NCBI RefSeq assembly: GCF_001267155.1
Contig: NZ_CP012357.1
Span: 930,001 to 994,000 of the forward strand
Length of the DNA: 64,000 nucleotides
From: Spiroplasma litorale
GTDB lineage: Bacteria; Bacillota_I; Bacilli_A; Mycoplasmatales; Mycoplasmataceae
Direction of reading: 5' to 3'
Shown here in pieces: positions 26,908 through 28,817 of this stretch; within the stretch, counting starts at the first letter, position 1, and every line of letters begins with the position of its first letter. Made by a program: the position numbers and the translations under genes. The notes beneath the pieces are model-generated. The model did no database searches and was not told the DNA's origin. It saw only the letters and a list, made by a program, of their open reading frames with translations.

Positions 26908-27498
26908 CTACTTATCTTCTTTTTTTGGTTTTGCTGTTGTTGATTTTGCAGCTGTTGTTTTAGTAGCAGCAGGTTTTGCTGTTGTTGATTTTGCAGCTGT
27001 TGTTTTAGTAGCAGCAGGTTTTGCTGTTGTTGATTTTGCAGCTGTTGTTTTAGTAGCAGCAGGTTTTGCTGTTGTTGATTTTGCAGCTGTTGTTTTAGTA
27101 GCAGCAGGTTTTGCTGTTGTTGATGTTAATTTAGGTTCTGAATTTTCAATTTTATTTTCTTGAACTTTTGCTGGTTTTGGTTTATTTGATAAAACACCAG
27201 TTAATGAAAGTTCGTCAATTTTTACTTTTGTGTATGGTTGTCTATGACCATATACTTTATTAACATTTTTCTTTGGATGATATCTTATAACTCTAAGTTT
27301 TTTTTCTTTTCCTTGTTTAACTATTGTTCCTGAAACAACAGCGTTTTTAATTAAAGGATTTCCAAAAGTTGAATCCATCATCAAAACTTCTTTGAAAAGA
27401 ACTTGTTCTCCTTCGTTTAAATTTAGTTTTTCAACATAAATTTCATCTCCAGGTTGAACTTTTAGTTGTTTACCACCTGTTTTAATAATTGCAAACAT
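26908..27498 (-). CDS. rplU: Large ribosomal subunit protein bL21 with repetitive basic tail
   Basis: 196 aa, against ~100 aa for ordinary L21. The first ~105 residues are standard: MFAIIKTGGKQLKVQPGDEI, then RYHPKKNVNKVYGHRQPYTK. The added ~90 residues begin KPAKVQENKIENSEP and then repeat a 15-residue unit (TAKPAATKTTAAKST) four times, ending KPKKEDK. The tail is histone-H1-like, basic and presumably disordered, and would project from the ribosome. First gene of the rplU-prp-rpmA operon, behind an L21 leader. Confidence 0.95.
   Translation of the reverse strand: MFAIIKTGGKQLKVQPGDEIYVEKLNLNEGEQVLFKEVLMMDSTFGNPLIKNAVVSGTIVKQGKEKKLRVIRYHPKKNVNKVYGHRQPYTKVKIDELSLTGVLSNKPKPAKVQENKIENSEPKLTSTTAKPAATKTTAAKSTTAKPAATKTTAAKSTTAKPAATKTTAAKSTTAKPAATKTTAAKSTTAKPKKEDK
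26927..27122 (-). repeat. 45-bp in-frame tandem repeats in rplU
   Basis: Four full 45-bp units plus a partial one, with start points 26927, 26972, 27017, 27062 and 27107 (exact 45-bp periodicity). Near-identical at DNA level, so recent expansion or active homogenisation by slippage. They encode TAKPAATKTTAAKST. Confidence 0.95.
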
Positions 27499-27504
27499 TA
27501 TTTA

Positions 27505-27585
27505 TACCTCCGAATAGACTCGCCTTGCATGTGAATATTAAATATTTCTTAAAACATACAAAAGAGCGGTTGAAACTACAACCTA
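27505..27585 (-). promoter_or_regulatory. L21 ribosomal leader
   Basis: The rplU 5' UTR reads GGTTGTAGTTTCAACCGCTC, a ~30-nt loop, then GCAAGGCGAGTC and GGAGG before the ATG. Paired CCGCTC/GGCGAG arms close to the SD are the hallmark of the Firmicutes L21 leader, thought to mediate autogenous control. Recognised from memory of the pattern; a covariance search was not possible. Confidence 0.7.
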
Positions 27586-27635: not shown

Positions 27636-27914
27636 CTAAAATATGCTTCCTCAACTTGTTTTTGGTGGTTGAGCCTTAGATTCATTGGATTTTGTTCTAT
27701 CAAATGATAAGCTATTGCTACCTATTTTCATATCAAACTTATCTACGTTATTTATTACTTTGCCAGCTAAAATTGATGTTGATATTGAACCGATTGTATC
27801 ATTAATTGCAGTTGATAATGATTTAATAATATTAGCTATACCATCAAGAAAAGCACCACTTAATCCAGCTCCACCAACAACTTCTCTTTTTTGATCAATA
27901 TTAAGTTTAGTCAT
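27636..27914 (-). CDS. Double-glycine-leader peptide (bacteriocin-like)
   Basis: 92 aa. N-terminus MTKLNIDQKREVVGGAGLSG: Leu at -12, Val at -4 and a GG cleavage site fit the leaders of class II bacteriocins and related exported peptides. The predicted mature part (77 aa) has a Gly/Ala/Ser/Ile-rich amphipathic region (GAFLDGIANIIKSLSTAIND) and a polar tail ending WGSIF (W is UGA; stop TAG 27636-27638). A very strong SD (GGAGGTGA) precedes the ATG, which is 30 bp after rsmI. No C39-peptidase transporter or immunity gene is in the window. Toxin, signal or structural peptide remain open. Confidence 0.65.
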
Positions 27915-27944: not shown

Positions 27945-28817
27945 TTATTTATTTTTATATATAAATTCAGACAATTTATTCTTATTTATATTATATTTTT
28001 TGCTTAAGTTTTTTATTATATCTTTGTTACTAATCGAATTATTTTTCATTGCTTTTATTTCAGAATCCAATTTATTCAAATTAAAACTAAACTCTTCATT
28101 TGAAGAGATTGATTCGATTAAAATACAAAATTCACCTTTTTTTACAAATTCATCCGAATTTATAAATTGACATACTTCACTTAAAGTTCCATAAACAAAC
28201 TGCTCATTAATTTTTGATATTTCTCTCCCAATTATAATTTTTGTAGATTCAGGTATTTGCAATAATAAAGAATTTAGTCTTTCAACTACCCTATGAACTG
28301 ATTCATAAAAACAAACTACACCTTTACTTTTTTTTAGTTCGTTAATCAATTCACTATTTTCAGTTTTATTTTGTAAAAATCCCAAAAATGTATTAGAGTA
28401 AGCTATAAGACCGCTTACTATTAAAACATGTATATATGCAGGACCTGCATTTATTGGTGTGATATTTACATTAATATTATTTTCAACAATTTTATTAACT
28501 AGATACATTCCTGGATCACAAATACAAGGTACACCAGCATCACTAATCAATGCAATTTTATTGTTAGTTCTTAGATCTTCTTGAAATGATTCAAATGATT
28601 CTATTTCATTAAATTTATGTACTGCTTTTAATGGCTTTTTAATTTCTAAATGATTTAACAACTTTATACTAACTCTTTTATCCTCACAATATATTAAATC
28701 CACTTCTTTTAAAATTTTAACAACCCTAAATGAAATATCTTTTAGATTACCAATTGGCGTACCTATTAAATATAAAGTTTTATTATCATTTTTATATGTA
28801 TTTTGAATTCTTAACAT
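27945..28817 (-). CDS. rsmI: 16S rRNA (cytidine-1402-2'-O)-methyltransferase
   Basis: 290 aa tetrapyrrole-methylase-fold enzyme that modifies C1402 at the ribosomal P site using SAM. Motifs: LIGTPIGNLKDISFRVVKIL, CEDKRVSIKLL, ALISDAGVPCICDPG and VVCFYESVHRVVERL. C-terminal helical domain present. SD TAGGAGA. It precedes the GG-leader peptide gene by 30 bp and may be co-transcribed with it. Confidence 0.95.
   Translation of the reverse strand: MLRIQNTYKNDNKTLYLIGTPIGNLKDISFRVVKILKEVDLIYCEDKRVSIKLLNHLEIKKPLKAVHKFNEIESFESFQEDLRTNNKIALISDAGVPCICDPGMYLVNKIVENNINVNITPINAGPAYIHVLIVSGLIAYSNTFLGFLQNKTENSELINELKKSKGVVCFYESVHRVVERLNSLLLQIPESTKIIIGREISKINEQFVYGTLSEVCQFINSDEFVKKGEFCILIESISSNEEFSFNLNKLDSEIKAMKNNSISNKDIIKNLSKKYNINKNKLSEFIYKNK

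Follow-up and report, generated by a model that had tools for sequence, protein, structure and literature searches.

Double-glycine peptides that are exported by C39 peptidase-containing ABC transporters (PCATs) comprise the class II bacteriocins, the cargo of PCAT1, and ComC, which leaves the cell via ComA. The consensus of the double-glycine leader is LSxxELxxIxGG, and ComC forms part of the pneumococcal competence circuit ComC-ComAB-ComX. In 2019, no double-glycine candidate was known for the C39 transporters of mycoplasmas, that of JCVI-syn3A included (eLife, PMC6609329, citing Dirix et al. 2004); the cargo was reported missing although this minimal cell retains one C39 transporter, and import of lipoyl-lysine or of a lipoyl-peptide was proposed for the transporter in question, JCVI-syn3A 0401 (PMC6609329). 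MG220 of Mycoplasma genitalium, also termed RrlA, is needed with RrlB for sigma-20 activation and homologous recombination in a feed-forward loop (PMC9262362).

Here we analyze a peptide gene in a stretch of 64,000 nucleotides of the Spiroplasma litorale genome, referred to below as the window. As judged by comparative sequence analysis, its product is very probably the cargo of the otherwise orphan PCAT of Mollicutes.

Results

The double-glycine-leader peptide gene is located at 27914..27636 on the minus strand and is an open frame of 92 codons in genetic code 4, with orthologues in other genomes. It starts with the ATG at 27914, and its translation with table 11 has only 87 aa because TGA encodes Trp near the C terminus. 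A strong Shine-Dalgarno sequence, GGAGGTGA, is read directly from the minus strand at 27926-27919, and its motif recurs in front of the orthologues. The 92-aa frame behind a Shine-Dalgarno sequence proposed in the first-pass annotation was borne out. The precursor translates (code 4) into MTKLNIDQKREVVGG followed by AGLSGAFLDGIANIIKSLSTAINDTIGSISTSILAGKVINNVDKFDMKIGSNSLSFDRTKSNESKAQPPKTSWGSIF, with the predicted cut after GG between the two parts. Upstream lies rsmI, encoding a 16S rRNA methyltransferase (27945..28817, minus strand), which is outside the system, and downstream rplU, encoding ribosomal protein L21 (26908..27498, minus strand). With these two genes as flanks, the earlier statement that no exporter or immunity gene is nearby was right. 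The L21 leader RNA (RF00559, Rfam E 5.7e-7) occupies 27506..27581 of the minus strand, between the peptide gene and rplU, and a stem scan revealed a terminator-like stem at 27568-27583, at this leader RNA. As a side observation, the L21 protein has a C-terminal extension of near-identical tandem units (KPAATKTTAAKSTTA; window 26908-27200, minus strand), and the strand antisense to these repeats is open throughout.

The pattern of a Shine-Dalgarno sequence and MxxL-x7-[VI]-x-GG was found at one place in the whole genome, the window frame, and at none in the reversed control. This match is unique, and dozens of genomes share the frame together with its leader and mature part, which confirms the frame as a real gene, above chance. 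A chance frame was dropped as an explanation in view of this conservation, and a frame that is part of the L21 leader in view of the separate position of RF00559. A phage gene was also considered and dropped, since a search of viral contigs for relatives of the peptide found none.

A protein search detected relatives in 37 of 60 genomes, including all 20 of the genus (the copy in G005 is frameshifted), and, at a threshold of E 1e-8, a profile built from 31 family members recovered the peptide in 50 of the 59 genomes sampled from the family (f1), equal to 50 of the 58 usable ones. The gene is single copy, vertically inherited, and near-universal in the family at a housekeeping locus. Members of the genus and most of the family share the order rsmI-peptide-rplU; in the citri-type clade and M. 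genitalium, the gene is not beside rplU. The alignment shows conservation of the product at the amino acid level along most of the chain. In 8 of 32 members (L244, L251, L261, L245, L052, L225, L265, and L118), the start codon is ATA, ATT, or ATC behind a strong Shine-Dalgarno sequence, and most of these genes offer no in-frame ATG, GTG, or TTG alternative. That near-cognate starts recur in this way suggests that initiation is deliberately kept low or is regulated, as it is in infC. These peptides have probably been overlooked because they are short, contain TGA as Trp codon, have genes remote from that of the exporter, and, in a quarter of the representatives, begin with ATA, ATT, or ATC. The citri-type clade (L102-L106, L109) has a second, tandem double-glycine-leader peptide of about 73-78 aa, for example MKLLTIKEQKETTGG followed after the leader by AAWIIGAL..., which begins about 270 bases past the start of the first. 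A tandem pair of double-glycine-leader peptides is also present in G102 of family f3 (L306).

The leader MTKLNIDQKREVVGG comprises 15 codons (27870..27914, minus strand), with a predicted C39 cut after GG, as derived from an alignment of 32 family representatives from 10 genera, to which the following counts refer. Leu at -12, Val at -4, and a GG site had been noted before, and these residues are present as L4, V12, and G14 G15 (-2/-1), with Gln at -8. Leader length is 15 aa in 32/32 representatives, all of which have Gly at -1, preceded at -2 by Gly (24) or Ala (8). Position -12 is L/M/I in 32/32, -4 is I/V/L in 29/32, -8 is E/Q in 30/32, and -11 is T/S/N in 28/32. The family thus shows the features by which a double-glycine leader is defined, namely, a GG, GA, or AG ending, hydrophobic residues at -4 and -12, and an acidic -8 position, and its leaders agree with LSxxELxxIxGG, except that -7 is often Lys instead of Leu/Met. 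The first-pass annotation held that orthologues devoid of GG and of the -12 and -4 residues would contradict it, and this argument fails to apply, since GG (or AG), -12, and -4 are kept. The search with bacteriocin-leader models that it suggested had a mixed outcome: for the window peptide, Pfam and TIGR01847 gave no match up to E 10, and the orthologue in G029, with the textbook leader MTKLTDNELEKIEGG, passes the NCBIfam model TIGR01847 (16.4 vs the cut-off of 15.7).

The mature peptide of 77 aa (27639..27869, minus strand) is, according to the alignments, composed of a small-residue-rich amphipathic helix, a conserved DKFDMKIGSNSLSFD motif, and a hydrophobic C terminus. A hydrophobic amphipathic mature segment had been proposed earlier, and for the 18-residue stretch from mature residue 7 the hydrophobic moment is indeed 0.60, a value that only 0.2% of shuffles attain. 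Across the family, the mature part has the form [AK]G[IV][ST]GA[LF]..GI..II, followed by a K.G...(S/T)(W/F).D-like motif and the hydrophobic C terminus, its length is 63-136 aa, and its net charge ranges from +3 to -10, being often negative and not consistently cationic. AlphaFold, provided with the peptide and 31 relatives, predicted a helix followed by a beta hairpin at low confidence, and because of its pLDDT of 56 this model is unfit for a fold search.

The source genome contains exactly one C39 domain and locus (E 2.8e-21), about 0.6 Mb from the peptide gene. The first-pass annotation had expected processing to depend on genes elsewhere and the idea to fail in a genome without a C39-type exporter; an exporter with full PCAT architecture does exist on the same chromosome, unlinked to the peptide gene. 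This protein of 676 aa combines C39, ABC_membrane, and ABC_tran in one chain and is homologous over its full length to PCAT1 (4ry2, E 1.2e-31) and ComA (8hf7, 3.1e-29), the closest solved structures. The catalytic Q/C/H/D positions are conserved in the aligned C39 domains, and the protein has what characterizes a PCAT, namely, C39, ABC membrane, and ATPase parts in one chain with Q, C, H, and D/N in the peptidase. The gene order at its locus is polC-rimP-PCAT-ORF-ybeY-dgkA-cdd. C39 domains were detected in 218 of the 248 genomes of the order. Those of family f9 (G044, G055, and G050; for example at L026 and L031) contain several in-frame TGA codons and some also TAA, so that the copies are either in decay or coded in an unusual way.

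In 16 of 21 loci from families f1, f3, and f7, including those of M. genitalium and M. penetrans, the exporter gene is followed, usually with an overlap, by a gene for a protein of 112-136 aa. The copy in the source genome, a small bitopic membrane protein (G000:C1:317210-317584; L067:8210-8584), overlaps the end of the exporter gene and has equivalents in L269-L288. The five loci from genera g2, g3, g5, and g10 lack this gene and have ybeY directly behind the exporter. The model of the protein consists of one TM helix and a six-stranded beta barrel (pLDDT 93). The copy of the source genome had no match in Pfam or NCBIfam, and Foldseek found no match to the fold at E<0.001, with HlyD-type proteins not among the matches listed. 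The best VIA Z score, 7.4, is to other beta barrels, and such barrels are common. This protein is possibly an accessory subunit of the exporter.

The co-occurrence of peptide and exporter was scored in 58 f1 genomes, one per species. The exporter was called intact from the C39 domain and the first ~630 codons where fetched, and the exporter of G167, with its short frame of 388 aa, was counted as intact. Left out was G064, in which the exporter is present and neither peptide nor rplU was found, a gap that we suspect to be masked sequence. An intact GG/AG peptide is present in 44/44 genomes with an intact exporter and in 3/14 with an absent or broken one (Fisher 1.6e-9, a value that ignores kinship and is therefore optimistic). 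With the C39 domain as sole criterion, the counts are 45/46 and 2/12 (Fisher 1.3e-8, kinship again ignored). The sequences point to several loss events that are independent of each other. Both genes are gone in G199, which is 92% identical in the rplU region to G126, a genome that retains both. In the clade of G115, G129, and G191, for which no C39 match was found, the peptide is lost in G129 and G191 and decaying in G115, where GV replaces GG and a stop interrupts the leader of the second, tandem peptide. In G092, an exporter with many stops is accompanied by a GG to EV change in the peptide, and in G005, an exporter stop by a peptide frameshift. The exceptions, with an intact peptide beside a damaged exporter, are G202, G027 (split frames), and G034 (one frameshift), which may be recent losses or sequencing errors; frameshifts in the surveyed genomes in general may be of the latter kind. 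In G202 (L233, G202:C1:1137609-1140932), a transposase-like frame lies just upstream of the stop-ridden exporter and both peptides are intact, and the exporter has probably been inactivated recently. As far as these sequences tell, the peptide decays where its matching exporter is lost.

Similar peptides are encoded outside family f1. In f7, a small ORF upstream of rplU has a strong Shine-Dalgarno sequence, a leader ending in GG (or PG/VG), a hydrophobic segment, and a GE.K....KWD motif, and in families other than f1, frames with a GG leader upstream of rplU were found at L080, L097-L099, L182, L196, L197, L203, and L205. The peptide of G087, which we take to be M. hominis, reads MNINFKLMSEEETKNIVGG and, after the predicted cut, FAITALIS...GEVKAGNISMKWDNS...HYCT, and is detected by the profile at E 6.7e-8. 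The f3 members of NF045747 (MPN313) have GG leaders too. In G047, presumably M. genitalium G37, the divergent arrangement of the peptide gene and mraZ led us to take the former to be MG220; it carries MYKLEKAQAKQVVGG, and the PCAT of this genome sits at the published position of MG_390. Among 44 leaders from f3 and f7, partly selected by pattern, -12 is L/I/M/V in all. The window peptide reaches 16 bits (E 0.012) with NF045747, for which the cut-off is 100, and is thus not a member; that cut-off is passed by only 3 of the 248 genomes of the order. A common origin of the f1 and f7 peptides is likely from their sequences. The signal of homology between f1 and f3 (MPN313/MG220) is weak, and because of the weak similarity of the window peptide to NF045747, an origin shared with f3 is no more than a possibility.

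Discussion

From the conserved leader, the exporter architecture, and the shared decay, we infer that the peptide and the exporter would form a pair and that the peptide would be cleaved and exported. The precursor would be made in the cytosol, and its 15-residue leader (L-12, T/S/N-11, E/Q-8, I/V-4, G/A-2, G-1) would dock on the C39 domain, which would cut behind the double glycine. The same ABC protein, in most lineages along with the small coupled membrane protein (TM helix and six-stranded barrel), would then drive out the mature peptide of 77 residues, and the exported amphipathic peptide would most likely stay at or near the outer face of the membrane.

As to what follows export, it is a guess with about even chances that the peptide serves the species as a conserved signal or surface factor and not as a bacteriocin; this reading is based on its universality, the coupling to an accessory membrane protein, and the link to RrlA. 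More speculative, and rather unlikely, is a stripped-down competence-like autoinduction circuit of wall-less bacteria, in which the peptide, the C39 exporter, and the mini beta-barrel would feed back on gene expression; this feedback could possibly, in M. genitalium, concern sigma-20, recombination, and DNA transfer via RrlA/MG220.

The first-pass interpretation is supported; a bacteriocin-like function found no support. In such a scheme, the mature amphipathic peptide would, as a class II bacteriocin, kill competitors, with immunity encoded elsewhere or provided by membrane composition. The GG leader, the amphipathic, small-residue-rich helix, the orthologues that touch bacteriocin leader models, and the second peptide of the citri-type clade, which recalls two-peptide bacteriocins, are consistent with this scheme. 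However, the cluster of the peptide, with rsmI and rplU as neighbors, includes neither an immunity gene nor an exporter, the mature part often carries a negative net charge, and vertical inheritance of a single copy, nearly universal and at a housekeeping locus, differs from the patchy, fast turnover of bacteriocins, which makes killing an improbable role.

It is quite improbable that the product is an intracellular or membrane sigma-accessory protein like MG220/RrlA of M. genitalium, with an incidental GG motif. MG220 is classed among the transmembrane sigma accessory proteins, and sigma-20 activation is said to require rrlA, but MG220 has a GG leader itself in a genome with the PCAT MG_390, and the 15-aa leader is kept exactly across the family of the window peptide. 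The proposal of PMC6609329 that the mycoplasma C39 transporter has another job, such as the lipoyl import mentioned above, would imply that the peptide is not its substrate. That argument was built on the absence of a GG peptide, whereas one is present with the diagnostic positions conserved and is lost or damaged along with the transporter, so that we consider this reading very doubtful. A small ORF that regulates the rplU operon, acting as a translation attenuator with a product that is not secreted, would fit the position just upstream of rplU in several families, but is extremely improbable given a separate L21 leader RNA between the ORF and rplU, a product conserved in amino acid sequence, a gene that in the citri-type clade and M. 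genitalium lies away from rplU, and decay of the ORF with a distant transporter gene.

With the peptide as probable cargo of the PCAT, wall-less bacteria, for which few secretion routes are known, would gain a pathway dedicated to peptide export, and the recombination regulator MG220/RrlA of M. genitalium would become a candidate exported peptide.

Comparison with known systems

Like the PCAT-exported double-glycine peptides, the window peptide and its family have a 15-aa leader with L-12, T/S-11, E-8, a hydrophobic -4, and GG, and they coexist with a C39-ABC exporter homologous over its full length to PCAT1 and ComA. In contrast to these peptides, the window gene is unlinked to the exporter and lies at a ribosomal-protein locus without an immunity gene, and its family is single copy and near-universal, with mature parts of 63-136 aa that matched no described bacteriocin or pheromone.

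The ComC-ComAB-ComX circuit shares with the system described here a GG peptide, a C39 exporter, and a small accessory membrane protein; in M. genitalium, the resemblance extends to an alternative sigma factor and to recombination. However, the mature peptide has 77 aa (63-136 in the family), compared with about 17-25 aa for ComC-type pheromones, no sensor kinase is known for it, and the accessory protein is only a mini beta-barrel, at best a putative relative of ComB/HlyD.

NF045747 (MG220/MPN313, RrlA) resembles the window peptide in its GG leader, hydrophobic segment, similar length, and a PCAT (MG_390) in the genome, whereas its C-terminal half is different and its gene is next to mraZ and not next to rplU.

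JCVI-syn3A 0401 and the other mycoplasma C39 transporters are of the same transporter type as the exporter of the window genome. The peptide family is a candidate of the kind reported missing for these transporters, and such a conserved cargo family makes exporter function directly testable.
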